A stretch of DNA of 64,000 bases. Origin: Candidatus Tectomicrobia bacterium (GTDB lineage Bacteria > UBA8248). The DNA is taken from contig JACPUR010000030.1 of NCBI GenBank assembly GCA_016192135.1, positions 62,001 to 126,000 of the forward strand, in the 5' to 3' direction. Positions 5,772 through 45,448 of the stretch are shown here, in pieces. The position numbers and the translations under genes are program-made. The stretch's first letter is position 1; the number at the start of each line of letters is the position of its first letter. Under the pieces are notes generated by a model. It did no database searches and had not been told where the DNA came from. It saw only the letters and a program-made list of their open reading frames with translations.

Positions 5772-5814
5772 AAAAACGGACGCGCAAACATCCGCGATGG
5801 GATCGCAAAATGCC

Positions 5815-7323: not shown

Positions 7324-7378
7324 GCGCTTTCCTCCGCGAAACGGATGCGGGCGCCGTGCGGGGCCCGCTCCAGGAGGC

Positions 7379-8641
7379 CTAGGGTTGCCGGAATTGCACC
7401 AGATGATAGTTCTTTTTCCCCTTCCGCAAAAGGACGTATTTGCCGAAGAGGAGGTCATTCCGAGACAGCGCCGCGCCTTCTTCCCCGATGCGGCGGTTGT
7501 TCACGTAGACGCCCCCGCCCTGGATGTCCTTCCGCGCCATCCCCTTCGAGGAAGACAGCTGGGTCTCGACCAGGGCGTCCACCAGGGGAAGGGGGAGGGC
7601 GCCCCCGCGCTCCGTCCGGGGCATCTCCTCGGCGGCGGCCAGGAGGTCCCCCTCCCGGATGCCCTCGAGCTCCCCGCCGAAGAGGATCATGGACGCCTTC
7701 GCGGCGCTCCGGGCGGCTTCCTCTCCATGCGCCAGCGAGGTCATCTCGCGCGCGAGGCGCCGCTGGCCCTCGCGCTTCTCGGGCGCGGCCAGGTGGACGT
7801 GCTCGATCTCCTCGATCTCCTCAACGGACATGAAGGAGAAATACTTGAGGAAGCGGCCCACATCCGGGTCCGCCGTCTGCATCCAGTACTGGTAGAAGCG
7901 GTAGGGGCTGGTGCGGGCCGGGTCGAGCCAGACGTTCCCCGCCTCGGTCTTCCCGAACTTGCGGCCGTCCGAGGTGGTGATGAGGGGGAAGGTGAGGCCG
8001 AAGGCGGGCTTCCCCCGCACCCGGCGGATGAGCTCGATGCCGGCCGTGATGTTCCCCCACTGGTCCGAGCCCCCGATCTGGAGGGCGCAGCCCTCGGCGT
8101 CGTGGAGGTGGAGGAAGTCGCAGGCCTGGAGGAGCATGTAGCTGAACTCGGTGTAGGAGATGCCCGCCCCCGCGACGCGCGCCTTGACCGACTCCTTCGC
8201 CTCCATATAGGCCACGGTGAAGTGCTTGCCCACGTCCCGCAGGAAGTCCACGAGGCTCATCCGCGCCAGCCAGTCGGCGTTGTTGACGAGCTTGGCTCTG
8301 CCCGCGCCGAAGTCGAGGAAGCGCCCGAGCTGGGCCCGGATGCCCTCGACGTTCCGCTCCAGCGCCGCGCGGCCGAGGAGGTTGCGCTCCTCGCTCTTGC
8401 CCGAGGGGTCGCCGATCATTCCCGTCGCTCCCCCCACCAGGGCGATGGGGCGGTGGCCCGCCCGCTGGAAGCGCATGAGGCCCGCGATGGGCATGAGGCT
8501 CCCGACGTGGAGGCTGTCCGAGGTGGGGTCGAAGCCGCAGTAGAGGGTCATCCCCCCGGCCTCGAGCGCCTGGCGGAACTCGGGCTGGTCCGTGAAGTCG
8601 TGCACCAGGCCCCGCGCCTGGAGGTCTTGAAGGAAGGTCAT
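7379..8641 (-). CDS. tyrS: Tyrosyl-tRNA synthetase
   Basis: A 420-aa class I aminoacyl-tRNA synthetase that charges tRNA-Tyr in the cytoplasm. The HIGH-type motif appears as SDSLHVGSL near residue 45. The KMSKS-type loop appears as KFGKTEAG near 232, the same form as in the E. coli enzyme. The tyrosine pocket signature YMLLQACDFLHLH is present. The C-terminal S4-like RNA-binding domain is KDIQGGGVYVNNRRIGE onward, ending near residue 418. Length is normal for the bacterial TyrS type. It is transcribed divergently from the MoxR-like operon, across a 403-bp gap packed with palindromes. Confidence 0.98.
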   Translation of the reverse strand: MTFLQDLQARGLVHDFTDQPEFRQALEAGGMTLYCGFDPTSDSLHVGSLMPIAGLMRFQRAGHRPIALVGGATGMIGDPSGKSEERNLLGRAALERNVEGIRAQLGRFLDFGAGRAKLVNNADWLARMSLVDFLRDVGKHFTVAYMEAKESVKARVAGAGISYTEFSYMLLQACDFLHLHDAEGCALQIGGSDQWGNITAGIELIRRVRGKPAFGLTFPLITTSDGRKFGKTEAGNVWLDPARTSPYRFYQYWMQTADPDVGRFLKYFSFMSVEEIEEIEHVHLAAPEKREGQRRLAREMTSLAHGEEAARSAAKASMILFGGELEGIREGDLLAAAEEMPRTERGGALPLPLVDALVETQLSSSKGMARKDIQGGGVYVNNRRIGEEGAALSRNDLLFGKYVLLRKGKKNYHLVQFRQP

Positions 8642-8670
8642 CGAATCTTCCCCGTCTGACGGTCTCGTCT

Positions 8671-8994
8671 GCAGGGCGGGTTTGAAACCCGCCCCTGCAC
8701 ACCCATTTCGCGCCGCGTGGTCGGTAGGGGCGAGGCATGCCTCGCCCCTACAACGACCGTCGCCGCGCCGCCTGATCCGTAGGGGCGGTTCGCGAACCGC
8801 CCCTACAACAAAACCGTACCCTGCCGCCCGATCTGCAGGGGCGCATGGCCATACGCCCCTGCAAAATAATGTCCGACATATATATCAGGGGAAGGGGAAT
8901 CGCCCAACAGGATGGGGTCGAGTCAGCCGTAGGGGCAGGCCCCCGTGCCTGCCCCCCTTCCCCAACCGGGGCGGCCACGGGGGACCGCCCCTAC
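8671..8994. repeat. Five-copy regularly spaced array of the GTAGGGGCG palindrome
   Basis: Copies are at 8671-8698 (core GGTTTGAAACC), 8724-8751 (AGGCATGCCT), 8779-8806 (GTTCGCGAAC), 8835-8862 (near CATGGCCATA) and a long compound copy at 8929-8994. The first four start 53, 55 and 56 bp apart, separated by 25-28 bp of differing sequence. The array fills the divergent gap between tyrS and the MoxR-like gene. Apart from the promoter at its right end, nothing else is visible in this gap. Confidence 0.88.
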
Positions 8995-8997
8995 GGG

Positions 8998-9006
8998 TGC
9001 TATAAT
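8998..9006 (+). promoter_or_regulatory. Extended -10 promoter (TGCTATAAT) of the MoxR-like operon
   Basis: A perfect TATAAT at 9001-9006 is preceded by TGC, giving an extended -10 element. No recognisable -35 exists because the region upstream is the compound palindrome ending at 8994. Transcription would start near 9013, about 32 nt before the TTG start codon. Confidence 0.65.
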
Positions 9007-9044
9007 GGGCGAAGGCCGCATTTTCACACACAAGGAGCCCTCCC

Positions 9045-10001
9045 TTGCACCTAGACGCCAAGGACGCCGCCCGGGCCGTAGAAGTCCAGGGCGTGACGCT
9101 CCACCTGAGCCAGCCCACCGACCCCAGCCAGGAGTGGATCGGCCAGCGGGAGGTCCTCCGCCAGCTCCAGGCCTGCTGGCTCGTGGTGGCCGAGGAGGAT
9201 TTGCCCCTGGCCCCCCGCATCGTGGGCCCCCCGGGCATCGGGAAGACCACCCTCGCCATGGCCGCCGCGCGGGAGCGGGGGCAGGAGCTCTACATCTTCC
9301 AGTGCACGGCCGACACCCGGCCCGAGGACCTCCTCGTCACCCCCGTCCTCTCCGAGGGGGGGAAGATCGCCTACCACGCCTCCCCTCTCGTCACCGCCAT
9401 GCTGCGGGGCGGGGTGTGCGTGCTGGACGAGGGGAACCGCATGAGCGAGAAGAGCTGGGCCTCCCTCGCGCCGCTCCTGGACCACCGGCGCTACGTCGAG
9501 TCCATCGTGGCGGGCATCACCGTGGGCGCCCGGGACGAGTTCCGCTGCTGCGTCACCATGAACGAGGACGCCTCGACCTACGAGGTGCCCGACTACATCC
9601 TCTCCCGCCTCCAGCCCACCCTCGAGGTGGAGTTCCCGCAGCGCGAGGACGAGCTGGCCATCCTCCAGTACCACTTGCCCTTCGCCCCGGCCGAGATGCT
9701 CGCGCTCACGGTGGACTTCCTCCAGGAGGCCCACGCCTTGGACCTCGACTACTCCCCCCGGGACGGCCTCCACATCCTCCAGTACGCCTTGAAGCGCATG
9801 GCCCAGGACCCCAAGCACCCCCTCGGGCAGGACGAGGCCTGGCGCGAGTCGCTGGTCAAGGTGCTGGGGGACGAGGCGCTCGACCTCCGCGGCCTCGCCC
9901 GCCGCCGCCGGCAGGCCCTCGGCGAGGAGCTGCCCCCCATGGACTTCGGGGACTACCTCTTCGGCGGGGAGAGCCCCCTGAACCCGGGCCGCGATCGCTG
10001 A
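9045..10001 (+). CDS. MoxR-like AAA+ ATPase
   Basis: A 318-aa AAA+ ATPase. Walker [10 protein letters not shown] is at residues 61-69 and Walker [12 protein letters not shown] at about 123-133. The sensor-1 region [24 protein letters not shown] is typical of MoxR/CbbQ-type ATPases that work with a partner protein. Translation starts at TTG, with GGAG 7 nt upstream. The gene at 10006 starts 4 bp after it stops, so the two are co-expressed. MoxR ATPases usually act as chaperones that remodel or activate a von Willebrand factor A (VWA) protein or metalloenzyme. The partner here carries no recognisable VWA domain, which makes the pair unusual. Confidence 0.9.
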
Positions 10002-10005
10002 CCCC

Positions 10006-12063
10006 ATGAGCCCCGGCGGTTCCAAGCGAGCCAGCGAAAGGGAGGACTTCCTCTCCCTCTCCCCGCGCATCCGCGTCATCCCGGTGGTGCACGCCTCGGG
10101 GGACTTCGCCCAGGAGGCCCGCGACCGCCTGCTCCGCCTGGAGCCGGACTGCCTCGCGGTGCCCCTCCCGCCCTCTTTTGAGGAATCTGTGGAGGCGGGG
10201 GTGGAGGCGCTTCCCCGCGTCTCCCTGGCCGCCGCCCGGGAGGAGGAGGGCGCCTGGTCCAGGGAGTGGGAGCGGGAGGACGAGGAGGAAGAGAGTGGGG
10301 AAGGGGAAGGGGAGGAGGACGCCCCCGATCTCCCCGCCTTCAACTACGTCCCCGTCGACCCCTGCCAGGCGGTGGTCGCGGCGCTCCGGACGGCGATGGG
10401 GGAGCGCATCCCCCGCGCCTGGGTGGACCTTGAGGTCGCGGCCTACGACCCGGAGTCCCACCTCCTGCCCGACCCCTACGCGCTCAAGAAGGTGCCCCTC
10501 GACGCCTTCGCGGCGGCGCTCCTCCCGGCCTCGCCCCCTCCCGCGCCCGGCAGCCAGCGCGAGGCCCGGGTGCGCTGGATGGCGTCGCGGCTCCGCGCGC
10601 TGGAGAGGGACCACAAGAAGATCGCCTTCCTCTGCCACGCCCTGGACTGGCCCTGGGTGAGGCAGGCCTATCTCACGAACCTGCCCGCGCCGGAGGAAGA
10701 AGCGTCGCCCCCCCGCGTCCGGCTCTACGAGGTGGAGGCGGGGACGCTCGCCTTCCTCCTGGGGGAGCTCCCCTTCGTCACCTCGCTCTACGAGAGGCGC
10801 CGGGAGGAGCTGCGCGGGGACCGCCACCTCTCCCTCGACGGGGTGAAGGAGCTCCTCCTGGAGGCGCGCGCGGCCTGGCTCGCCGAGCACAACCCCGTCC
10901 ACAACTGGGTCACGCCCCAGCGGCTCCAGGTCTTTCTCCAGTACGTCCGCAACCTCACCCTCCAGACCCGGCGGCTCACCCCGGACCTCTTCACCCTGGT
11001 GGTGGCCGCCAAGCAGTGCGCCGGGGACGCCTTCGCCCTCTGCCTGGCCGAGACGGCGAGGAAGTATCCGTACCAAGACCCCCCCCCTCAATCCCCCCCT
11101 TATGAAGGGGGGGAAGGGAAAGGCCCGGCCCGCCGTTCGGGGAGGCAGGATTTTGATTCCCCCCCTGATCAAGGGGGGGGCAGGGGGGGTGAGGAAGAAG
11201 GCGCCTGGAACGCGGTGCGCATGGGCATCGGCAAGGCCGAGTTCCCGGAGGGCGATGTCGGCGGGATGAAGAACAGGCTCGGCGGGAGCCCCGTCTCCTG
11301 GCGCAACATCTCCTTGAAGCCCAAGCCCCGGCCCTTCGAGAAGCGCAAGTGGGCCCAGCGCTGGGACCCCTACGGCATGTGCTCCTGGCCCCCCGAGGAC
11401 ACGAAGATCGAGAGCTTCCACACCCACGTCCGCGAGCAGGCCAAGGCCCTCCTCGGGGAGGACCTCGCCCGCACCGAGAAGTTCACCGTCTCGATCAAGG
11501 ACGGCCTCGACATGCGCGAGACCCTGCGCAACTGGCACACCGGGGATTTGTACGTGAAGGAGATCCCCCCGGCGCGCGGGAGCGTGGAGGTGGTCGTCTT
11601 CCTCTTCGAGAGCCCGGCCGATCCCGATAAGTATTCCTGGCGCACCATGTGGTACGCCGAGCACGAGGAGGAGTCCACCCTCTGCATGTACGCCACCCCC
11701 TTCGAGGGGAACATGGTGGGGCCCGGCATCGCCGAGAGCCAGTACGGGGGCGCCTTCTTCCTCTTTCCTCCGCGCCACCTCCCCGACGTCTGGCGCGACC
11801 CCCGGCTCGCCTTCACCGAGACCCTCGAGGAGCGCCTCATCGCCGGCGCCTGCCTCCACTCCCGGGAGAAGAGCGTCGCCCTCGTCTCCCCGCGTCCCCC
11901 CCTCGCCCGCTGGCGCCAAATCGCCCGCGTTTTGAAGCGGCACCTCATCTACCTCCCGCTCGGGCGCTTCTCGGGCGAGACCATCGCGCGGGTGCGGAGG
12001 TTCCACGTGCTGAACGGAAGGCACGTGAGGAGCTACGCGGCGCGGTTTATACGGGAGATGTGA
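10006..12063 (+). CDS. Uncharacterised 685-aa partner of the MoxR-like ATPase
   Basis: I do not recognise this protein with certainty. The N-terminal 60 residues (IRVIPVVHASGDFAQEARDR, LRLEPDCLAVPLPPSF) resemble the opening of TraB/DUF5682-like proteins found beside MoxR ATPases. Residues 78-108 are strongly acidic (many EEE and DEEEE). A basic helical middle follows, with RVRWMASRLRALERDHKK and QFLQYVRNLTLQTRRLTPD-like segments. The last 300 residues (DPYGMCSWPPEDTKIESFHTHV, NWHTGDLYVKEIPP) look like a compact, well-conserved domain. At about residues 358-396 an in-frame GC-rich repeat encodes low-complexity Pro/Gly sequence. The protein is probably the substrate or adaptor of the upstream ATPase, judging by operon position alone. 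Confidence 0.75.
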   Translation: MSPGGSKRASEREDFLSLSPRIRVIPVVHASGDFAQEARDRLLRLEPDCLAVPLPPSFEESVEAGVEALPRVSLAAAREEEGAWSREWEREDEEEESGEGEGEEDAPDLPAFNYVPVDPCQAVVAALRTAMGERIPRAWVDLEVAAYDPESHLLPDPYALKKVPLDAFAAALLPASPPPAPGSQREARVRWMASRLRALERDHKKIAFLCHALDWPWVRQAYLTNLPAPEEEASPPRVRLYEVEAGTLAFLLGELPFVTSLYERRREELRGDRHLSLDGVKELLLEARAAWLAEHNPVHNWVTPQRLQVFLQYVRNLTLQTRRLTPDLFTLVVAAKQCAGDAFALCLAETARKYPYQDPPPQSPPYEGGEGKGPARRSGRQDFDSPPDQGGGRGGEEEGAWNAVRMGIGKAEFPEGDVGGMKNRLGGSPVSWRNISLKPKPRPFEKRKWAQRWDPYGMCSWPPEDTKIESFHTHVREQAKALLGEDLARTEKFTVSIKDGLDMRETLRNWHTGDLYVKEIPPARGSVEVVVFLFESPADPDKYSWRTMWYAEHEEESTLCMYATPFEGNMVGPGIAESQYGGAFFLFPPRHLPDVWRDPRLAFTETLEERLIAGACLHSREKSVALVSPRPPLARWRQIARVLKRHLIYLPLGRFSGETIARVRRFHVLNGRHVRSYAARFIREM
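11079..11190. repeat. CCCCCCT/AGGGGGG inverted-repeat pair inside a coding region
   Basis: Two short hairpins, one built on CCCCCCCTTATGAAGGGGGGG and one on CCCCCCTGATCAAGGGGGG (each sequence overlaps the next bases slightly), face each other about 55 bp apart. The block is translated in frame as a Pro/Gly-rich insert in the 685-aa protein. It looks like a repeat insertion that kept the reading frame. Confidence 0.7.
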
Positions 12064-35650: not shown

Positions 35651-35819
35651 TGTAGGGCATGGGGCGAAAATTCGCGCTTTATCTCTTGGCGGAATAATTT
35701 GGAGGCGATACTATTCTGGCTCCGCCCGGTCGATCGGGATGTTGAAGTGAGGGCAAGGACGGTGGACTTCGTCTATCCCGACGCGCACCACAGGCTTGGC
35801 AGTTTGGGAAAACGTCTTC

Positions 35820-36737
35820 ATGGATGAAACTCAGCGCCTATTCTATCGAAAGAACTTCCAGGTCCGCTTCCTGAGAAGCACTGCAACTGAATTTCAGAAT
35901 CTTTTTTCAGACATCATGCAACGCGTCTACAAAGCCGATTTCCAGAAGGTGCGCCCCTACGGTAAGCATGGCGATCTCAAATGCGACGGTTTCCTCAGTT
36001 CCAAGGGAGCGGTTTACCAGTGTTATGCGCCTCGGGAGCTCAAAGAAAAAGAAACCATCCACAAAATTAAAGTGGATTACCCTGGAGCCAAGAAGCACTG
36101 GCGCGACCAAATGAAACAGTGGGTCTTCGTCCATAATGACAATGACGGTTTGCCCGGCGGTGTTGTTCGTCACCTTCATGTGCTGAAAACATCAGAAAAG
36201 AAGAAGGTGGAGGTATTCTGGTGGTCCGAACCGGAGTTGATCGGAGAGATGGAGAAGTTGGACGAAGCTGACTTGGTGGATTTGTTTGGCCCACAACCTA
36301 CCAAGGTGCAATCGCAGATAATCAGTTTTCCTGAACTGCAGACTGTCCTTACCGCGATATCAAAAAGCATTCCAGATCCGGAACCGGTTATCAAAGCTCC
36401 GTCCCCGGAGAAAATTGCTCACAACAATCTTTCAGAGGATACAACGAGGTTCCTTCACCTTGGCCGTCATCTTGAACGCGAGGTCCAAAAATTTCTTGAA
36501 AAGTGGCCCGACCCGGCCTTTGCCGACCAGATTGCCGAAACCTTCCGCAATCAATACGACGCTTTGCGCAATACTGGCTTGAACAGCGAAGAAATATTTG
36601 TTGGAATTCTCCGCTTTTGCGGATTCAACCAAGGGAATGGTAGTGCTCACAATACAGCGGTTCTCGCTGTCGTTTCTTATTTCTTTGAGCGCTGCGACAT
36701 TTTCGAAGACCCGGATGCGGTGGTATTTTCCGCATGA
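35820..36737 (+). CDS. ABC-3C system effector, nuclease-like N-terminus and C-terminal ABC-3C domain
   Basis: A 305-aa protein. The N-terminal 110 residues (RKNFQVRFLRSTATEFQNLF, then GKHGDLKCDGFLS and AVYQCYAP) resemble the restriction-endonuclease-like effector domain of ABC-three-component systems: GD-x3-DG followed by Q-x-YAP, equivalent to the PD-(D/E)xK core. The last 100 residues (FLHLGRHLEREVQKFLEKW to FFERCDIFEDPDAVVFSA) fit the C-terminal domain that docks this effector to its ATPase. The start at 35820 is where similarity begins; a TTG 24 nt upstream is possible. Its stop overlaps the next gene by ATGA. Base composition is much lower in GC than its neighbours, indicating transfer. 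Confidence 0.82.
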   Translation: MDETQRLFYRKNFQVRFLRSTATEFQNLFSDIMQRVYKADFQKVRPYGKHGDLKCDGFLSSKGAVYQCYAPRELKEKETIHKIKVDYPGAKKHWRDQMKQWVFVHNDNDGLPGGVVRHLHVLKTSEKKKVEVFWWSEPELIGEMEKLDEADLVDLFGPQPTKVQSQIISFPELQTVLTAISKSIPDPEPVIKAPSPEKIAHNNLSEDTTRFLHLGRHLEREVQKFLEKWPDPAFADQIAETFRNQYDALRNTGLNSEEIFVGILRFCGFNQGNGSAHNTAVLAVVSYFFERCDIFEDPDAVVFSA

Positions 36738-36979
36738 TATTGCCAACCAAACATCTTCGCCCTGACCGAGCCCTGGTCGCAGTGGGGGCGGATGTCCTTG
36801 GGCTTTTGCAAACCCCCCAAACCGTTTCACGCCTTTGGGAGGATTTTCGTCTCTTGCGCTCCCGAAGACCCGGCGTCGCACCCGTCACCTACGAATGGTT
36901 CATTCTATCCTTGGACCTGCTGTTTTTGCTTGAGGCGGTTACTTTTGAAAGAGGTCAGGTCCAAAGGTCTCAGTCATGA
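36734..36979 (+). CDS. ABC-3C system middle component (MC6-like)
   Basis: An 81-aa protein beginning MILPTKHLRPDRALVAVGAD and containing VSRLWEDFRLLRSRRPG and TYEWFILSLDLLFLLEAVTF. This is the pattern of middle component 6 of ABC-three-component systems, a small winged-helix-like protein that links effector and ATPase. It overlaps both neighbours by 4 bp (ATGA at each end), so the three proteins are made together. Recognition is from family pattern, and a profile search would settle it. Confidence 0.82.
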   Translation: MILPTKHLRPDRALVAVGADVLGLLQTPQTVSRLWEDFRLLRSRRPGVAPVTYEWFILSLDLLFLLEAVTFERGQVQRSQS

Positions 36980-38742
36980 TTCGAGAAATCATCAGTGACC
37001 TTGGCAGCTTTAAGCCACTGCGCTTTCGAGAAGGATTGAATATCATTCTGGCTGATAAGACCGATAAATCGACTGACCGTCAGTCCCGGAACGGCGCCGG
37101 AAAATCCAGCATCATTGAGATCATCCATTTTCTTTTCGGCGGTGAAGCAGGGAAGGGGAGTATCTTTCGCACACAGGCTCTTCAGGACCATACTTTCTTT
37201 ATCGACTTTGACCTAGGAGATGAGAAAACCACAATCGGACGTAGCGGCCAAAAGCCCGCTGACATTCAGATTCTTCATGGGTCTACAGGAAAATGGCCGT
37301 ACCAGCCACGCCAGAATAAGAAATATTCCCACCCCATAATTTCGAACGTTCATTGGCGAGAGACTCTGGGAAACATCACTTTCGGGCTGGACGTTCACCA
37401 GGAAATCGGTAAAAGTCCCTTTGAACCCACCTTTCGGCAGCTTTTCTCTTATTTTGTCCGGCGCCATTCCTCCGGCGCATTCCATGAACCGCAAAGTCAA
37501 AATTCCAAACAGCAGTCATGGGATATTCAGGTTGCGCTTAGTTTTCTTCTCGGGCTCGATTGGACCATTCCCCGCCGCTTCCAGGAACTTCGGATAAAGG
37601 AACGGACAATCAAGGAACTTCGTAAAGGGATTAAGGAAGGTGGTTTTGTTGGTTTCTTGGAAGCGGCTGCCGACATTCGGACGCGCGTTACCCTGACCGA
37701 AGCAAGAGTTCGCAGGTTTCAAACAGCATTGGCTGAATTTAGGGTCGTCCCTGAATATAGTGCACTTGAAAGAGAAGCCAATGAGATAACCGCGAGAATT
37801 CGAAGCCACTCCGACGATAACACCACTGACCGGGCGCTTGCCGCGAAACTGGAAGAGGCTTTTCACCAGGAAGACCCGCCTGGCGTGGCGCAGTTGGGGC
37901 AAGTCTACAAAGAAGCCGGCGTTATCCTGCCGGAAAAAGTTACCAAACGTTTTGAGGATGTAATTAAATTTCATCAGGCCATTATCGAGAATCGTCGTGC
38001 CCATCTTCAATCTGAAATCGACCAAGCGAACAGACGTATTGCAGGCCGGGAGCGAGAGATGGCGGAACGTGAAACCCGTCGCGCACAGATTATGGGTATA
38101 CTTAGGAGCGGTGGAGCCCTGGAGCATTACACAAAAATTCAAGAAGAGTTAGCCCGCAGCGAGGGGGAAGCCCAAAGCCTTCGCCAAAGTTTAATGCTTG
38201 CGGAGGACCTGGAGAACCGACAGACCAGCGTTGCCATTGAACGGACTCAGCTCTTGCAGAGGCTTCAGGAAGACCATCATGAACAGGAAGAGACGATTAG
38301 AAACGCCATTATAAAGTTTGGCGAACTCTCTTCTGAACTTTACGAGAGGGCAGGAAACCTTGTTATCTCCACGAGCGAAGGCGGACCAAGATTTGAGGTG
38401 AAAATTGAAGGAGCAAGGAGTCGCGGGATTACGAACATGCAAATATTCTGTTTTGACATGATGCTTATGGCGCTCAATGCCGAACGCGGCCTTGGCCCCG
38501 GATTTCTCGTTCACGATAGCCACTTGTTCGATGGCGTTGACGAGCGACAGGTGGCCAATGCGCTTCAGATTGGAAGTGAAAAAGCGAAGGAACACAATTT
38601 TCAATACATAGTGACAATGAATTCCGATGCCCTTCCAAAGGAAGGTTTCCGCCACGATTTTAATGTGCGTGACTTCGTTATTGAGCCGCAGCTTACAGAT
38701 GAAACCGAAACAGGCGGTCTCTTTGGGATCCGCTTTGGTTAA
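36976..38742 (+). CDS. ABC-3C system SMC-like ATPase (DUF2326)
   Basis: A 588-aa ATPase of the SMC/Rad50 type. The N-terminal Walker A is SRNGAGKSSIIEIIHFLFGG at residues 38-57. A long coiled coil occupies about 200-440 (RELRIKERTIKELRKGIKE, REREMAERETRRAQIMGIL). The C-terminal half-ATPase includes NMQIFCFDMMLMALNAERGLGPGFLVHDSHLFDGVDERQV, where the Walker B region reads FLVHDSHLFDGVD. DUF2326 proteins are the ATP-driven sensor of ABC-3C conflict systems, thought to detect invading nucleic acid and release the effector. AT-rich codon use matches the two upstream genes, not the host. Confidence 0.85.
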   Translation: MIREIISDLGSFKPLRFREGLNIILADKTDKSTDRQSRNGAGKSSIIEIIHFLFGGEAGKGSIFRTQALQDHTFFIDFDLGDEKTTIGRSGQKPADIQILHGSTGKWPYQPRQNKKYSHPIISNVHWRETLGNITFGLDVHQEIGKSPFEPTFRQLFSYFVRRHSSGAFHEPQSQNSKQQSWDIQVALSFLLGLDWTIPRRFQELRIKERTIKELRKGIKEGGFVGFLEAAADIRTRVTLTEARVRRFQTALAEFRVVPEYSALEREANEITARIRSHSDDNTTDRALAAKLEEAFHQEDPPGVAQLGQVYKEAGVILPEKVTKRFEDVIKFHQAIIENRRAHLQSEIDQANRRIAGREREMAERETRRAQIMGILRSGGALEHYTKIQEELARSEGEAQSLRQSLMLAEDLENRQTSVAIERTQLLQRLQEDHHEQEETIRNAIIKFGELSSELYERAGNLVISTSEGGPRFEVKIEGARSRGITNMQIFCFDMMLMALNAERGLGPGFLVHDSHLFDGVDERQVANALQIGSEKAKEHNFQYIVTMNSDALPKEGFRHDFNVRDFVIEPQLTDETETGGLFGIRFG

Positions 38743-38878: not shown

Positions 38879-38953
38879 GCCCCCCGCTTTTGGGATTTCC
38901 CGCCTTTTGACTTGGTTTCTCCCCGGGCGGCCGGGGAGGGAGGGTTCCAGCCG

Positions 38954-40408
38954 GTGAACGTGGTCTTCATCTCGCCCCCCGAGACCCATTCCATCGAGAG
39001 CTCGCTCCCCGCCCAGATCAACCAGGGGGGAGGGGTCTACCCCCGCCTGGGCCTCCTCTACGTGGCGGCCTACTACGAGCGGGAGACGGGGGAGAAGACG
39101 GATTTCATCGACGCCCCGGCCCTGGGCATGGACTACGAGCGGCTGGAGGAGGAGATCCGCAGGCGGCCCATCGACCTCGCGGCCGTGAGCGTCCTCACCT
39201 TCAACCTCATCGACTCCTGCAAGGCGGCGGCCCTGGTGAAGAAGCACCACCCCAAGGCGCGGGTGGTCTTCGGGGGGCACCACGCGAACTACTACCCGGG
39301 CGAGTCGGTGCGCTTGAAGGAGGTGGACTACGTCATCAGCGGGGACGGGGAGAAGTCCTTCCTCATGCTGGCCCAGGCCATCGACCGGGGGGAGCGCCCC
39401 GAGGAGCTGGCGGCCATCCCGGGCCTGAGCTGGCACGACGGGGAGAAGCCCAGGGTGGCCTTCCTGCGCGGGGACTCGGGGGACCTGAACCTCCTCCCCT
39501 TCCCGGCCCGGCACCTCATCAACCTGCGCAACTACAACAACCTCATCGGGGCGAGCGACGTGACGGCCACCATCCAGTCCTCCCGGGGCTGCCCCTTCGC
39601 CTGCACCTTCTGCGACATCCGCCGCACGAAGTTCCGCTACCGCGAGCCTTCCAACGTGGTGGACGAGGTGGAGGCCCTGACGGCGCAGGGCATCGAGGAC
39701 TTCTTCTTCGTGGACGACACCATCACCATCCGCAAGCAGCGCGTCCACGAGATATGCCAGGAGATGATCCGCCGGGGTCTCAAGGTCCAGTTCAAGATCA
39801 GCTCCCGCGTGGACTGCATCAACGAGGCCCTCCTCAAGGACCTGCGCCGGGCGGGCTGCTACCGCATCCACTACGGGGTCGAGAGCGCCAGCCAGCGGAG
39901 CCTCGACTACATGGAGAAGGGCATCACCCCGGACCTGGTGCGCAAGGTCTTCCGCCAGACCAAGGAGGCCGGCATCGGGGCCTACGCCTACATGATGATC
40001 GGCATCCCGGGGGAGACGCGGGAGGAGATGGAGGCCACCTTCGACTTCGCCGTGGAGCTGGACCCGGACTACTGCCAGTTCTCCATCTGCACCCCCTACC
40101 CCAAGACCGAGCTCTACGAGCGGATGCTCAGGACGGGCATCATCCCCCACGACTACTGGCAGGAGTTCGCCGAGAACCCCCAGGAGGGCTTCCGGGTGAA
40201 GTTCTGGAACCCCGACTTCGAGGAGGCGGAGCTCCGCGAAATCCAGCAGTACGGCCACCGCAAGTTCTACGGCCGCCCCCGGTTCGTCCTCCGGGAGCTG
40301 GGCCGGGTGCGCTCCCTCGTGGATTTCCGCCGCAAGGCGGCCATGGGTCTCAAGTTGCTCCTCCGGCGGGGCGCCCGGCGCCCCGAGGCGCCCACCCTGA
40401 CCACCTAG
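38954..40408 (+). CDS. B12-binding-domain radical SAM enzyme (BchE/P-methylase-like)
   Basis: A 484-aa protein. The N-terminal 150 residues form a cobalamin-binding-like domain (VNVVFISPPETHS, RLGLLYVAAYYER, ARVVFGGHHANYYPGE). The [4Fe-4S] motif SRGCPFACTFCDIRRTKFR (C-x3-C-x2-C) is near residue 205, followed by FFFVDDTITIRKQRV and GVESASQRSLDYMEKG. Such enzymes perform radical methylations, cyclisations or carbon-skeleton changes. The GTG at 38954 is chosen with GGAGGGAGGG about 10 nt upstream; a TTG at 38912 is possible but unsupported. It precedes the methyltransferase/ATP-grasp gene on the same strand, which suggests a joint pathway. Confidence 0.9.
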   Translation: MNVVFISPPETHSIESSLPAQINQGGGVYPRLGLLYVAAYYERETGEKTDFIDAPALGMDYERLEEEIRRRPIDLAAVSVLTFNLIDSCKAAALVKKHHPKARVVFGGHHANYYPGESVRLKEVDYVISGDGEKSFLMLAQAIDRGERPEELAAIPGLSWHDGEKPRVAFLRGDSGDLNLLPFPARHLINLRNYNNLIGASDVTATIQSSRGCPFACTFCDIRRTKFRYREPSNVVDEVEALTAQGIEDFFFVDDTITIRKQRVHEICQEMIRRGLKVQFKISSRVDCINEALLKDLRRAGCYRIHYGVESASQRSLDYMEKGITPDLVRKVFRQTKEAGIGAYAYMMIGIPGETREEMEATFDFAVELDPDYCQFSICTPYPKTELYERMLRTGIIPHDYWQEFAENPQEGFRVKFWNPDFEEAELREIQQYGHRKFYGRPRFVLRELGRVRSLVDFRRKAAMGLKLLLRRGARRPEAPTLTT

Positions 40409-40628
40409 GCCCTCCCCGCCGGGGGGCCGGTGGCTCCCGCAGCGCTCCGGGGCCGGATTTTTGCCCTCGCCCCCCAAAAAATTGATGCAAATTCCAGCGG
40501 TTGGATTACATTGACGCCACACGTGCCCAGATCCGCGTTCCGCCTGTGGGGGGCGGCACGGGAGCGGGGCGGCGGGAGGCGGCGGCCTCCGCGCCGGACG
40601 GGAGGAGAGGGGGAGGACGGCGGAGCCG

Positions 40629-42632
40629 ATGAGCGACAAACCACCGGCATCAGGAAAATCCAGCATTCCCGGCAAGAACGGCAAGTCCCGCAAGCGCGCG
40701 CTGGGCCCGGTCGCCAACCTGGAGGAGCATGTCCCCCCCGAGTGGTGGCGGGGGATCTTCAATTCCCTCTACCTCAAGACCGACTCCGACGTCGTGGCGG
40801 ACCCGAACATCACCCGCCAGGAGGCCGAGTACTTCGCCCGGCTGCTCCAGCTCTCCCCCGAGGACAAGGTCCTGGACCTGTGCTGCGGCCAGGGGCGCCA
40901 CTCCCTCGAGCTGGCCCGCCGGGGGTTCCGCGGGGTGGAGGGGCTCGACCGGTCCCACTTCCTGATCCAGAAGGCCCGGAGCCTGGCCAAGAAGGAGGGC
41001 CTCCCCGTCAAGTTTCGCGAGGGGGACGCCCGCAAGCTCCCCTATTCCCCGGACGCCTTCGATGCCGCCCTCATCCTGGGCAACAGCTTCGGCTACTTCG
41101 AGACCGCCCACGAGGACCTGAAGGTGCTCCAGGGGGTGTGCCGCGCCCTCAAGCCCTGGGGGAAGCTCCTCATCGACGTCTCGGACGGGGAATACCTCCG
41201 CGAGCGCTTCCAGCCCCGCTCCTGGGAGTGGCTGGACGACAAGCACTTCGTCTGCCGCGAGCGGGCCCTCTCGGCCGACGGCCGCCGGCTCATCTCCCGC
41301 GAGGTGGTGACCCACGTCGAGAAGGGGGTGCTGGTGGACCAGTTCTACGCCGAGCGCCTCTACAGCCGGCCGGAGCTGATGGAGCTGCTCAGGGCGGCCG
41401 GCTTCCACGAGGCCGCCGTCCACGGCGAGATCGCCACCGGCTCCCAGCGCAACCAGGACTTGGGGATGATGGAGCGCCGCATCATCCTGACGGGGGTGGC
41501 CCGCAAGGAGTGGACCCCCCTCCGCAAGCGGCCCAAGGAGGCCGTCCGCACCGTGGCGGTGGTGATGGGCGACCCGGGCAAGCAGGACATCGTCAAGCCC
41601 GACGCGGTCTTCGACGAGGACGACCTCTACACCATCGACCAGCTCAAGGCGGCCCTGCGGGAGCTCAAGGACTACCGCTTCCTCTACCTCTCGAACCACG
41701 ACTCCCTCATCGCCGAGCTCGCGAAGCTGAAGGGCAAGGCGGACTTCGTGCTGAACCTCTGCGACGAGGGGCTGGCGAACGACCCGCTGAAGGAGCTCCA
41801 CGTCCCGGCCCTGCTCGAGGCGCTGGGCATCCCCTTCACCGGGGCGGGGCCCCAGTGCCTCGCCTACTGCTACGACAAGTCGCTCGTGCGGGGCATCGCC
41901 AAGGAGATGGACATCCCCGTGCCCGAGGCCTTCTTCATCAAGCCGGGCGAGTCCACCTTCGAGATGCCCTTCGCCTTCCCGGCCATCGTGAAGCCCAACT
42001 TCGGGGACTCGAGCTTCGGCATCACCCAGAAGAGCGTGGTGCACGACCACGAGGAGCTCCTGAACGTGGTGACGGAGCTCCACCGGCGGTTCGGCTACGA
42101 GAAGCCCATCCTGGTGGAGGAGTTCCTGGCGGGGGCCGACCTGACCGTCGGCATCATCGGCAACCCGGACGCCTCCTACACCGTCTTCCCCGTCAGCGAG
42201 GAGGACTACTCCGAGCTCCCGGAGGAGCTGCCGCGCATCTGCGGCTACGAGGCCAAGTGGGACCCCGAGTCCCCCTACGCCCGCCTGCGCTCCATCCCGG
42301 CCAGCCTCCCCGACGTCACCGAGAAGCGCATGGTGGACGCCTCCCTCAAGCTCTTCGAGCGCCTGGGCTGCCGGGACTACGCCCGCTTCGACTGGCGCCT
42401 GGACGCCGAGGGGAACCCCAAGCTCCTCGAGGTGAACCCCAACCCCGGCTGGTGCTGGGACGGGCACCTGGCCAAGATGGCCAAGTTCACCGGCGTCTCC
42501 TACGCCGGGATGCTCGAGGCCATCCTCCGGGCGGCCGAGCAGCGCCTCGGCCTGGACTCCCAATCGCCGGACCGCCCGGCCGAGCGCAAGGAGGAGGCGG
42601 CCGGCGAGCCCGTCCTCGTGAACGGGAATTAG
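40629..42632 (+). CDS. Fusion of class I methyltransferase and D-Ala-D-Ala ligase-like ATP-grasp domain
   Basis: A 667-aa bifunctional protein. Residues 60-300 are a SAM methyltransferase: motif I VLDLCCGQGRHSLELARRG near 80, then GLDRS, and FDAALILGNSFGYF near 140. Residues 310-640 are an ATP-grasp ligase like Ddl: IPFTGAGPQCLAYCYDKSLV, FPAIVKPNFGDSSFGI, ILVEEFLAGADLTVGIIGN, and the metal-binding end LLEVNPNPGWCWDGHLAKMAK. The two domains are joined without an obvious linker. ATP-grasp enzymes ligate a carboxylate to an amine, so the protein could build a methylated dipeptide-like product. It follows a radical SAM enzyme and is closed by a strong terminator. Confidence 0.9.
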   Translation: MSDKPPASGKSSIPGKNGKSRKRALGPVANLEEHVPPEWWRGIFNSLYLKTDSDVVADPNITRQEAEYFARLLQLSPEDKVLDLCCGQGRHSLELARRGFRGVEGLDRSHFLIQKARSLAKKEGLPVKFREGDARKLPYSPDAFDAALILGNSFGYFETAHEDLKVLQGVCRALKPWGKLLIDVSDGEYLRERFQPRSWEWLDDKHFVCRERALSADGRRLISREVVTHVEKGVLVDQFYAERLYSRPELMELLRAAGFHEAAVHGEIATGSQRNQDLGMMERRIILTGVARKEWTPLRKRPKEAVRTVAVVMGDPGKQDIVKPDAVFDEDDLYTIDQLKAALRELKDYRFLYLSNHDSLIAELAKLKGKADFVLNLCDEGLANDPLKELHVPALLEALGIPFTGAGPQCLAYCYDKSLVRGIAKEMDIPVPEAFFIKPGESTFEMPFAFPAIVKPNFGDSSFGITQKSVVHDHEELLNVVTELHRRFGYEKPILVEEFLAGADLTVGIIGNPDASYTVFPVSEEDYSELPEELPRICGYEAKWDPESPYARLRSIPASLPDVTEKRMVDASLKLFERLGCRDYARFDWRLDAEGNPKLLEVNPNPGWCWDGHLAKMAKFTGVSYAGMLEAILRAAEQRLGLDSQSPDRPAERKEEAAGEPVLVNGN

Positions 42633-42656
42633 CGCGGGCGAATCCGGAAAGTTCGG

Positions 42657-42693
42657 CGGCCGCGGTCCCGGGAGGGGCCGCGGCCGTTTTTTT
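42657..42693 (+). terminator. Rho-independent terminator after the ATP-grasp gene
   Basis: An 11-bp stem (CGGCCGCGGTC 42657-42667 with GGCCGCGGCCG 42676-42686, one G-T pair) has an eight-base loop and is followed by seven T residues (42687-42693). It starts 25 bp after the stop codon. Confidence 0.9.
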
Positions 42694-42754
42694 GGTCCTT
42701 GGGAAAGGACGAAAAGGGGGCGCTTCCCAGGGCCGGTTCGAGCCCCCGCCGGTG

Positions 42755-42763
42755 TGCTATCCT
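42755..42763 (+). promoter_or_regulatory. Possible extended -10 element (TGCTATCCT) of the MntA-HepT pair
   Basis: TGC followed by TATCCT, 35 bp before the MntA start, immediately after the terminator of the preceding gene. TTCGAG about 17 bp upstream is a weak -35. Confidence 0.4.
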
Positions 42764-42797
42764 ATGAGGGCGCGAGCCCTTTCGGATGGAGCCCGGC

Positions 42798-43088
42798 ATG
42801 AAGCTGGACGATCTCTTGAGGGAAAAGCGCGAGGAGGTCCTCCGCCTCATCGCCCGCTACGGCGCGAGCAACGTCCGCGTCTTCGGCTCCGTGGCGCGGG
42901 GGGACTTTGGCCCCGAGAGCGACATCGACCTCCTCATCCTCCCCGGGCCGGGCATGAGCCTGTTCAAGCACGCCGCGCTCGAACGCGAGCTCGCCGACCT
43001 CCTCGGCTGCCGGGTCAACCTCGTGAGCGAGCGGGGCCTGAGGCCGCGCGTCCGGGAACGCGTCATGCAGGAAGCCGTCACCCTGTGA
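42798..43088 (+). CDS. mntA: MNT-type nucleotidyltransferase antitoxin
   Basis: A 96-aa minimal nucleotidyltransferase. The catalytic motif VFGSVARGDFGPESDIDLLI (G-S-x10-D-x-D) is at about residues 27-46, with the third acidic region ELADLLGCRVNLVSERGL. MntA proteins AMPylate a tyrosine on the HepT toxin and so neutralise it. The ATG at 42798 is preferred over one 12 nt upstream because GGAG lies 7 nt before it. The HepT gene begins 5 bp after its stop, giving the standard two-gene operon. Confidence 0.88.
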   Translation: MKLDDLLREKREEVLRLIARYGASNVRVFGSVARGDFGPESDIDLLILPGPGMSLFKHAALERELADLLGCRVNLVSERGLRPRVRERVMQEAVTL

Positions 43089-43093
43089 GCCCC

Positions 43094-43426
43094 ATGCGGG
43101 ATGACCGCCTCCTCGACATCCTCGATTCCATCGGCCAGATCGAACAGCAGGCGGCCAAGGGCAAGGAAGCCTTCCTCCGGGACGAGATGATCCAAGTCTG
43201 GATGCGCCATCATCTTCTGATTATCGGCGAGGCTGCCGCAGGGTTGTCGCGCGAGTTGCGCGGACGAAATCCCGAGGTTTCATGGGCGGACATCATCGCC
43301 ATGCGGAACATCATCGTGCACGAGTACTTCGGCGTGGACCTGGGCCAAGTGTGGGACGCCGTGATCCAGGACCTGCCCAGGCTCAAGCGGGACGTGGAGG
43401 GGATTTTGGAAGGGATGGAACCCTGA
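43094..43426 (+). CDS. hepT: HEPN-domain RNase toxin, HepT-like (DUF86)
   Basis: A 110-aa all-helical HEPN protein. The catalytic R-x4-6-H motif appears as MRNIIVHEYFGVD near residues 75-87, where R and H cleave RNA and the tyrosine after HE is the position AMPylated by MntA. The N-terminal DDRLLDILDSIGQIEQQAAKGKEAFL is typical of DUF86. It is paired with the upstream MntA. Such modules act as toxin-antitoxin systems and can give phage defence. The open frame continues far upstream in shadow sequence, but homology begins at this ATG. Confidence 0.88.
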   Translation: MRDDRLLDILDSIGQIEQQAAKGKEAFLRDEMIQVWMRHHLLIIGEAAAGLSRELRGRNPEVSWADIIAMRNIIVHEYFGVDLGQVWDAVIQDLPRLKRDVEGILEGMEP

Positions 43427-43494: not shown

Positions 43495-43863
43495 TCATTC
43501 GTGACGCTCCTCCGCTCCGTCCCCCGGACGGGGCGGGGGCGTCTCGCGCAGGGCGAGGTGGCGGGCGATGTCGGAGATGCGCTTGGAGAGGATGGTGAGC
43601 TGCACCGAGAAGTAGACCAGGATGAACACCACCCCCGCCAGGACCATGAGCATCCAGGCCTGCTGGGTGTCCGGCGTCCCGGCCATGCGCCGCAGCAGGG
43701 GCCAGAAGACCGGGAGATCGAGCGCCAGGAGCCCCGCCGCGATCAGGATGAGCCAGGCCACGGCGTAGCCCACGTAGAGCCGCACCCGGATGACGAGCCT
43801 GAGCGCGTAGGCCGCCAGCAGCAGCCCCACGAGGTTGGCGAAGAAGAGGAAGGCGCCGCTCAC
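43495..43863 (-). CDS. DUF2304 membrane protein
   Basis: A 122-aa protein with three hydrophobic helices (LFFANLVGLLLAAYALRLVI, YAVAWLILIAAGLLALDL, WMLMVLAGVVFILVYFSVQLTILSKRI) and a charged cytoplasmic tail. This is the DUF2304 arrangement, in which R-x-L-Y-V-G-Y-A-V-A-W-L follows helix 1. DUF2304 genes are regularly found after polyprenol-phosphate glycosyltransferases, as here: its ATG overlaps the stop of the GT2 gene by 4 bp. It may help deliver or flip the lipid-linked sugar. The precise role is not established. Confidence 0.8.
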   Translation of the reverse strand: MSGAFLFFANLVGLLLAAYALRLVIRVRLYVGYAVAWLILIAAGLLALDLPVFWPLLRRMAGTPDTQQAWMLMVLAGVVFILVYFSVQLTILSKRISDIARHLALRETPPPRPGDGAEERHE

Positions 43864-44588
43864 CGCGCCCGCCCCCGGCCCTCTTCCATCCAGGCCCGCA
43901 GGACGGAGCAGAGGATGAGGGTCCCCGTCAGGAGGGGATAGCGCAGGAGGGCGAGCTTCCCGTACATCGAGACGCCCGCCCTCCGCTCCGCGAAAACGGC
44001 CGGGTGCTCGGCGATCCGGAAGCCCCTGAGGCCCAGGTAGACCAGCGCCTCGGCGTGCAGGTCGAGGAAGGCGCCCTCGGCGATGATGGGCAAGACCGCC
44101 GGCCCCGCCGCCTTCATGCCCGAGGTCGAGTCGGTGATGCGCTGGCCGGTCAGGCGGCTGGCGACGCGGCTGAAGAACTGGTTGCCCAGGAAGCGCCCGA
44201 TGGAAGCCCCCGCCGCCGCCCCCCCTGAAAAGCGGGTGGCCACCACGATGTCCCCCTCGCCGCGCTCCAGGCGCTCCAGCATGGGCAGGACCTCCGAGGC
44301 GGGGTGCTGGCCGTCCCCGTCGACGAAGATGGCGCGCTCGTAGCCGTTCGCCAGCGCCCAGGCGCAGCCGATCTGGAGGGCGCCCCGGTAGCCCAGGTTG
44401 CAGGCCAGGCGGATCTGGGCGGCGCCGAGCCGGTCCACGATGGCGGCGGTGGTGTCCGAGGAGTGATCGTTCACCACCAGGATGTCCACCCCCGGCGCGC
44501 TCGCGCGGAGATCGGCGATGACGCGCCCAATGCTCTCCTCTTCGTTGTGCGCGGGGACGATGGCGAGGGGAGGGCGCCCGGCGGTCAT
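43860..44588 (-). CDS. GT2 glycosyltransferase (polyprenol-phosphate mannosyltransferase-like)
   Basis: A 242-aa family 2 glycosyltransferase. The nucleotide-sugar motif LAIVPAHNEEESIGRVIADL is at residues 8-27, VVNDHSSDTTAAIVDRLG near 38 and the metal-binding DGDGQHPASEVLPML near 92. A dolichol-phosphate-mannose-synthase-like ITDSTSGMKAAG follows near 150. It would load a sugar onto a polyprenol carrier at the inner membrane. Start and stop overlap the neighbouring genes by 4 bp each, so methyltransferase, GT2 and DUF2304 form a tight three-gene operon. Confidence 0.9.
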   Translation of the reverse strand: MTAGRPPLAIVPAHNEEESIGRVIADLRASAPGVDILVVNDHSSDTTAAIVDRLGAAQIRLACNLGYRGALQIGCAWALANGYERAIFVDGDGQHPASEVLPMLERLERGEGDIVVATRFSGGAAAGASIGRFLGNQFFSRVASRLTGQRITDSTSGMKAAGPAVLPIIAEGAFLDLHAEALVYLGLRGFRIAEHPAVFAERRAGVSMYGKLALLRYPLLTGTLILCSVLRAWMEEGRGRAR

Positions 44589-45448
44589 GGGGCGCCCTCC
44601 GCGGGCCGCTGGGCGAGCAGGGTCATGATGTCGAAGGCGTTGAAGTAGAGGGAGGGCCCGCGCTCGATGGCGGTGGCTCCCCCTCCCGTCAGCATCCGGG
44701 CGGCGCGGCCCAGGCTCAGCCGCCGGCCGAAGCGGCGCAGGGCCACGGGCATGAGGCCCGCCTTCCGCATCACGCCCTCCAGCGTCCGGCGGCTGAAGAA
44801 GTAGAGATGCACGGGCGGGAGCATCAGCCACCAGCGCCGCCCGAGGAGCCGGGCGGCGATGGAGGCGACGTCCCCCGTCGAGGCCACGAGCCACCCGCCG
44901 GGCCGCAGGCGCGCGGCGGCGGCGGCCATGTCCCCGCTCGGATCCGCCAGGTGCTCCACCGTGTCCCACATGGAGATGACGTCGAAGTCCTTCCAGCCGG
45001 ACGGGAGGTCCCGCGCCGTCCCCGCCCGGGCCTCGAGGCCCCGCTTCCGGGCCTCCCCGGCGCAGTAGGCGGAGATGTCCACGCCGCGGGCGTCCCAGCC
45101 CTCGTCCCGGGCCGCGGAGAGGAAGGAGCCGGTCGCGCAGCCGATGTCCAGCCAGCGCCCGCCCGCGAGCCCGGTGGTGCGGCTGATCCAGGCGAGCCAC
45201 TTCCGGTAGTCCGCCCGGCGCGCCGCCGCCTCGCTCTCGTAGCTGCGGTAGAGGCCCCCCTCGAAATACTCCCGCCCGTAGATGGCGCGCAGGCTCTCCT
45301 CGCCGGGGACGGGATGGGTGAACACCAGCCCGCACCCTTCGCACGCGAGGACGAAGTAGCCGTCCTTCTCATGGAGCGGGGAGAAGGCGCCCCCGCCGCA
45401 CAGGTTGCACCTTCGGGAGAGGGCGGAGACGGGAAAAGCGTGAACCAA
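44585..45448 (-). CDS. Class I SAM methyltransferase with N-terminal zinc-ribbon-like cysteines
   Basis: A 287-aa protein. Two Cys pairs (CNLCGGG near residue 14 and CEGCGLVFTHP near 34) form a zinc-ribbon-like start. The methyltransferase domain follows with WLDIGCATGSFLSAARDEGWDARGVDIS near 97 and FDVISMWDTVEHLADP near 149. This architecture is common in surface-polysaccharide gene sets. Translation is assigned to TTG at 45448 because GGAGGAAACCC precedes it and the cysteine motif begins shortly after. The frame upstream of that TTG has no homology. It overlaps the GT2 gene by ATGA. Confidence 0.85.
   Translation of the reverse strand: MVHAFPVSALSRRCNLCGGGAFSPLHEKDGYFVLACEGCGLVFTHPVPGEESLRAIYGREYFEGGLYRSYESEAAARRADYRKWLAWISRTTGLAGGRWLDIGCATGSFLSAARDEGWDARGVDISAYCAGEARKRGLEARAGTARDLPSGWKDFDVISMWDTVEHLADPSGDMAAAAARLRPGGWLVASTGDVASIAARLLGRRWWLMLPPVHLYFFSRRTLEGVMRKAGLMPVALRRFGRRLSLGRAARMLTGGGATAIERGPSLYFNAFDIMTLLAQRPAEGAP

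Follow-up and report, generated by a model that had tools for sequence, protein, structure and literature searches.

A widespread fusion of a SAM methyltransferase and a Ddl-like ATP-grasp ligase in bacteria and archaea

Within a 64,000-nucleotide stretch of a Candidatus Tectomicrobia genome (hereafter, the window), one gene (40629..42632, forward strand) joins an S-adenosylmethionine (SAM) methyltransferase to a ligase resembling D-alanine-D-alanine ligase (Ddl), and it follows a gene for a cobalamin-binding radical SAM enzyme. What could such a fused protein make, and does it work together with its neighbor? A preliminary description regarded the two genes as a pair with the make-up of a small peptide-like pathway and proposed that the gap between them could hold a short precursor.

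Our analysis bore out the fusion itself. The gene is a single open frame of 667 codons without an internal stop; its 667-aa product contains two Pfam domains and has full-length relatives elsewhere. The N-terminal half (residues 37-291; 40737..41501, +) carries Methyltransf_25 (residues 81-178, 6e-18) and has the Rossmann fold, SAM motif I and acidic ribose-binding residue of a class I SAM methyltransferase. The C-terminal half (residues 307-640; 41547..42548, +), delimited with Pfam, NCBIfam, Foldseek and a residue comparison, carries Dala_Dala_lig_C (PF07478; residues 445-633, 1e-25; 90.9 bits against a gathering score of 24) and is a complete Ddl-fold ATP-grasp enzyme with invariant catalytic positions and its own pre-ATP-grasp domain. 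Motifs of the methyltransferase half are motif I LDLCCGQGRHSLEL, GDAR, GNSFGYF, SWEW, FVCRER, DQFYAERLY and NQDLGMM, and those of the ATP-grasp half are NLCDEG, KPNFGDSSFG, GYEAKW, RFDWR and EVNPNPGWCWDGH. AlphaFold models, including an AF2 model of the methyltransferase domain, were confident for both halves (mean pLDDT 82-83; pTM 0.71 for the whole protein and 0.77 for the methyltransferase half). In Foldseek searches, the C-terminal half matched Ddl structures (17-26% identity in the fold alignments), while the N-terminal half matched CypM, NmbA, GNMT/GSMT and various C-methyltransferases. Full-length copies in congeners, in a member of the same family and in many phyla, closed genomes among them, rule out an error of assembly or gene calling as its source. 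Neither an antisense frame (40650-42563) nor an overlapping frame (40430-43426) shows any sign of being a gene; elsewhere, clusters of this kind are side effects of the conserved frame of the fusion.

The gene before the fusion (38912..40408, +) encodes, as described earlier, a cobalamin-binding radical SAM enzyme, with B12-binding (PF02310, 1e-15) and Radical_SAM (PF04055, 8e-27) domains and the CxxxCxxC motif CPFACTFC. Its start is probably GTG 38954, since the congener alignment begins at residue 14-15. It fits no curated radical SAM family, the best NCBIfam match being BchE with 186 bits against a cut-off of 481. Close orthologs (77-92%) occur in the window's own genome (G000) and in G001, G007 and G010; however, the gene adjoins the fusion only in G000 and the congener G001, in both of which the two are co-directional. 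The congener G002 (91% complete) keeps the fusion, there located between a ChaN-like gene and a DUF547 gene (47662), but has no radical SAM gene. Two further members of the window's family, G007 and G010, have the radical SAM gene facing the glycosyltransferase that corresponds to window 43860-45344, with no fusion between them. Outside the family, a radical SAM ortholog stood beside the fusion at none of ~80 loci. The pairing was to be given up if the two neighbors were conserved together in no other genome; a single congener keeps them together and all other loci do not, and the idea of a working pair did not hold. We conclude that the two genes are a local adjacency, and we regard the radical SAM gene as an unrelated neighbor of the fusion.

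The 220-base gap between them (40409..40628; 73% GC) diverges from that of the congener (locus L012), and alignment and ORF comparison of the two gaps revealed no conserved short frame and no frame in common, so that the suggested precursor found no support. A graspetide or RiPP system was likewise rejected, with no conserved short frame in the gap and no conserved neighbor of the ATP-grasp ligase. As the preliminary description had stated, the fusion has no carrier, peptidase or transporter gene next to it in the window. The flanks are a candidate ABC-3C/PDC-M68 defence pair (35796-38742; a CTD10 of ABC-3C and a DUF2326/CTD10 protein, PADLOC PDC-M68A/B, the second gene at 544 bits) and a toxin-antitoxin-type pair (42786-43426) of an MntA-type nucleotidyltransferase followed by a HepT-like ribonuclease (110 aa, start ATG 43094). 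Neither pair recurs around the fusion in the congeners. Next come DUF2304 and glycosyltransferase 2 genes (43495-45344), and the glycosyltransferase is a constant neighbor of the radical SAM gene in G001, G007 and G010.

We examined the distribution of the fusion. The window's genome is 3.9 Mb in size, and its close relatives are Candidatus Tectomicrobia; within its family the fusion is present in G000, G001 and G002, all of one genus, and in G003. Full-length copies share 89-90% identity in the two congeners, 69% in the family member and 50-70% in many other phyla. A wide scan with a single genome for each species turned up relatives of the fusion encoded in at least 577 places, the best 80 of which are essentially full-length fusions with at least 62% identity. 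Bacterial hosts among these best 80 include Planctomycetota, Atribacterota, Desulfobacteria, Omnitrophota, Aminicenantes, Zixibacteria, Chloroflexota and many more, and the archaeal hosts are Jordarchaeia, Freyarchaeota, Methanophagales and Altiarchaeota. The six Jordarchaeia/Freyarchaeota copies form one supported clade and so are not stray contigs; the remaining archaeal copies are placed among bacteria and suggest transfer. A copy in a Nitrosotalea bin is almost the same as one from Methanophagales, which probably reflects misplacement during binning. Among 337 broadly sampled genomes, ~25 carry the fusion, counting two contig-edge fragments and leaving out G143. Three full copies sit in single-contig assemblies, and complete genomes with the fusion include Desulfonema magnum and a Zixibacteria chromosome. 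The fusion occurs in a single form, with an identical domain order in every full copy. The exception, G143 (1.4 Mb), has the methyltransferase half alone (L126:1468-2397; 309 aa, 60% identity), followed by uvrA; we read this as loss of the ligase half, and it indicates that the two halves are separable.

Elsewhere, the fusion is mostly a stand-alone gene. Across ~110 loci it had no conserved neighbors, repeated neighbors being mostly lineage synteny, so that its pathway context is thin. The two largest clusters of non-fusion neighbors were rejected as antisense or overlapping-frame artefacts of the fusion.

To compare the active sites, we aligned 86 copies of the fusion, including ones at 50-58% identity, and identified 92 invariant positions. 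The SAM motif residues D83, G87, G89 and D107 are invariant in all 86, as are the positions equivalent to K144, S151, K215, R255, D257 and N272 of Ddl, which in the fusion are the ATP and acyl-phosphate residues K455, S462, K543, R586, D588 and N603. As judged from this alignment, both active sites are under constraint. The positions that recognize D-Ala in Ddl are replaced by invariant or nearly invariant residues, W544 and the WCWDGH stretch: Y216 corresponds to W544 and S281-L282 to G612-H613, in 83-86 of the 86 copies. The D-Ala contacts Tyr216 and Ser281-Leu282, and the Ddl numbering, are those of E. coli DdlB, onto which the fusion was mapped by alignment. The window's genome also encodes a separate Ddl with canonical motifs (C24, L003). 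Replaced D-Ala positions, retained catalytic residues and a separate Ddl together point to an ATP-grasp ligase of Ddl fold that acts on a different substrate.

Relatives of the methyltransferase half include an amine methyltransferase. Its closest PDB sequence is 9ri2, NmbA (phmmer 6e-25, profile 8e-28; ~25% identity), which N-methylates the cysteine amine of bacillithiol (PMC12719100, PMC6282198). Fold neighbors include the N-methyltransferases CypM, GNMT/GSMT, TylM1 and CalS10, along with methyltransferases of the C- and other types. Relatives as distant as 25% identity cannot pin down the target atom, and among the close folds are several C-methyltransferases. Unfused relatives occur in two ligase contexts: directly beside bshC in three genomes (G122, G293 and G298), and in four others (G125, G261, G164 and G282) within one operon that also encodes a DUF885 peptidase and an ATP-grasp-like orphan protein, C5; in G185 the relative is accompanied by C5 alone. 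The run of DUF885 peptidase, C5 and methyltransferase is conserved in L141-L143, L147 and L148, with L141 having the last two only. C5 encodes ~470 aa and has no Pfam, NCBIfam or significant PDB match. Its best PDB hits are ATP-grasp enzymes at E ~0.4, so that its ATP-grasp nature rests on motifs read by eye. Its kinship with the ATP-grasp of the fusion was rejected, the profile comparison not being significant. In L148 the C5 frame carries an in-frame stop.

Among unfused proteins, those closest to the ATP-grasp half (33-38%) are for the most part tandem ATP-grasps that occur with GNAT proteins, and KamA (lysine 2,3-aminomutase) is encoded at 10 of the 15 such loci examined. Judging from these contexts, the unfused relatives of the two halves are found among genes for amino-acid and amide chemistry. 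Clusters with one or two Ddl-like ATP-grasps, GNAT and KamA (L132-L140, L144-L146, L150 and L151) are uncharacterized; some GNAT/KamA clusters contain another ATP-grasp, C6, also encoded immediately after the fusion in L059. At that locus (5780-10204), the fusion is part of a compact gene run that also encodes a 7TM_transglut membrane protein, an ATPgrasp_ST ligase and one more ATP-grasp.

A partner that recurs in some lineages is a zinc amidohydrolase of the AstE/AspA family. In Desulfonema magnum, its gene (L078:9967-10983) overlaps the end of the fusion gene; it also adjoins the fusion in L091 and L019 and is arranged head to head with it in G408. The partner matches PF24827 with 85.3 bits against a cut-off of 25 and has the zinc motif HxxE...H, whose residues H53, E56 and H141 are invariant in seven copies. 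With the subfamily defined at E <= 1e-40, it was found in 3 of the 337 genomes, all three with the fusion. A second unselected sample, partly overlapping the first, added four genomes with the subfamily, again all with the fusion, in contrast to 5 of 24 close relatives tested. Seven of seven against a background of ~30/361 gives a hypergeometric probability of 1.4e-8 with no phylogenetic correction, and the true figure is weaker because four of the seven genomes come from one family (f81). Within one genus (g295), G391 has both genes while G389 and G393 have neither. Among 50 genomes selected for the fusion, seven carry the subfamily, one of them an archaeon, so that it accompanies ~12-14% of fusion genomes (3/25; 7/50); the window's genome lacks it. 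The fusion and amidohydrolase genes lie on different contigs in G057 and G097; the phylum-wide samples around G057 and G188 comprised three genomes each.

Other zinc amidohydrolases also adjoin the fusion, namely an N-formylglutamate amidohydrolase (L194) and an M32 carboxypeptidase (L025, L044 and L153); the M32 adjacency, seen in two independent lineages, could be chance. We read these co-occurring and adjoining enzymes as an amide made by the fusion and cut by the hydrolase. In G408 (L190:6265-12308), an AstE-like gene, the fusion, a second AstE-like gene and a RimK gene lie together. In L091 (246-1928), from a Desulfobacteraceae bacterium, two S-adenosylmethionine decarboxylase-family genes and a spermidine synthase gene are located ~1.2 kb upstream of the fusion.

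Based on these observations, we propose, with moderate confidence, that the fusion is a bifunctional amide ligase and N-methyltransferase whose product is a small methylated amino-acid amide and which in some lineages has a partner amidase. In the ATP-grasp half, a carboxylate would be activated by ATP to the acyl phosphate and coupled to an amine, so that a small molecule of amino-acid type acquires an amide bond. The methyltransferase half would transfer a methyl group from SAM, most likely onto a nitrogen of the substrate or product rather than onto oxygen or carbon. The product would probably be a small N-methylated amino-acid amide or dipeptide, which in some lineages a dedicated AstE/AspA-family zinc amidohydrolase may trim or recycle; the adjoining radical SAM gene would take no part. 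The predicted reaction types are well supported. Recurrence of the fusion, nearly unchanged, in hundreds of bacteria and archaea, most of them uncultured, together with an amide-cutting enzyme in some, suggests that an undescribed methylated amino-acid-type compound is probably made. We advance more tentatively, as a possibility somewhat short of probable, that one widely shared enzyme makes an undescribed N-methylated amino-acid amide (osmolyte, thiol or cofactor-like) and that the AstE-like protein is its dedicated processing or recycling enzyme. The peptide-like pathway of the preliminary description thus survives in its chemistry, through an amide ligase, a relative of an amine methyltransferase and an amidohydrolase, and not as a two-gene pathway.

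A different substrate class would change this picture. RimK ligates an amino acid onto ribosomal protein S6, and the fusion might in a similar manner attach an amino acid to a macromolecular target, such as the terminus or a side chain of a protein, and methylate it. This would explain how a gene usually without conserved neighbors can work alone, and the very high conservation across domains and the proximity of rimK and two AstE-like genes in G408 agree with it; yet the ATP-grasp half belongs, with its Ddl type and its own pre-ATP-grasp domain, to a class of small-molecule ligases, the nearest solved relative of the methyltransferase half acts on a metabolite, and no peptide-recognition domain was seen in the fusion, which makes a macromolecular target unlikely. 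A low-molecular-weight thiol pathway, with the fusion attaching cysteine to a carrier and N-methylating it as an ATP-grasp counterpart of BshC plus NmbA and with AstE as conjugate amidase, would accord with NmbA as the closest solved relative, with unfused methyltransferase relatives adjoining bshC, and with hosts that look largely anaerobic, like several known makers of N-methyl-bacillithiol. We regard it as less likely still. The known pathway is not the one at work, for BshC shows no association with the fusion (6 of 25 fusion genomes, against 58 of 312 others) and is missing from the window's genome, and the fusion is also found in archaea. Membership in the bacillithiol pathway itself (bshA-bshC occurrence) was rejected on the one bsh gene tested, BshC.

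We consider it very improbable that the fusion and the radical SAM enzyme together constitute a small natural-product pathway whose precursor peptide is encoded in the gap, for despite their common orientation in the window and in G001 the genes are separated in G002, G003, G007 and G010, the pair occurs at no outside locus, and the search for a conserved frame in the gap found none. We find it scarcely credible that the fusion is a peptidoglycan D-alanine-D-alanine (or D-Ala-D-Lac/D-Ser) ligase with an accessory methyltransferase. VanA and Ddl enzymes are its best solved relatives by sequence and fold; nevertheless, every NCBIfam Ddl model scores far below its cut-off (TIGR01205, 119.7 bits versus 245.65), the D-Ala contacts are exchanged (W544, G612-H613), the genome has its own canonical Ddl, and archaea carry the fusion.

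As far as the searched open-licence literature goes, where we found no account of the fusion, including under ATP-grasp with KamA and ATP-grasp with aspartoacylase, it is an undescribed, widespread bifunctional enzyme. An identity of 65-70% over 600 residues between deep-branching bacteria and archaea points to strong constraint. If the product is a common small metabolite of subsurface life, current metabolic maps would lack that compound. With ligase and methyltransferase fused, there is no need to guess which of them act together; the link to the amidohydrolase offers a second handle, so that two or three genes would suffice for a direct search for the product.

Among known systems, the proposed amide ligase and N-methyltransferase shares the fold and the ATP and acyl-phosphate machinery of the Ddl/VanA family; unlike that family, it has replaced substrate contacts (W544, PNPGWCWDGH) and a fused methyltransferase and is found in archaea. 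The tandem Ddl-like ATP-grasp/GNAT/KamA clusters, many of which have the YEAKW and EVNPNP motifs of the fusion, are closer in sequence; however, they are multi-gene, have no methyltransferase fused to them and are themselves uncharacterized. NmbA (9ri2) has the same class I fold and acts on the amine of an amino-acyl amide, although it is a stand-alone, bacillithiol-specific enzyme, whereas the fusion has two domains, does not track with BshC and is present in archaea. The amidohydrolase partner has the HxxE...H motif of AstE/AspA deacylases but constitutes a distinct subfamily found only in genomes that have the fusion. In the carnosine/anserine system, an ATP-grasp carnosine synthase, an N-methyltransferase and a zinc dipeptidase act on one dipeptide. 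ATPGD1 and CN1 are enzymes of the carnosine part of that system (PMC3407494). The trio of ATP-grasp ligase, methyltransferase and zinc hydrolase resembles the fusion with its AstE-like partner in logic only, since the carnosine and anserine enzymes are separate vertebrate proteins from other families.
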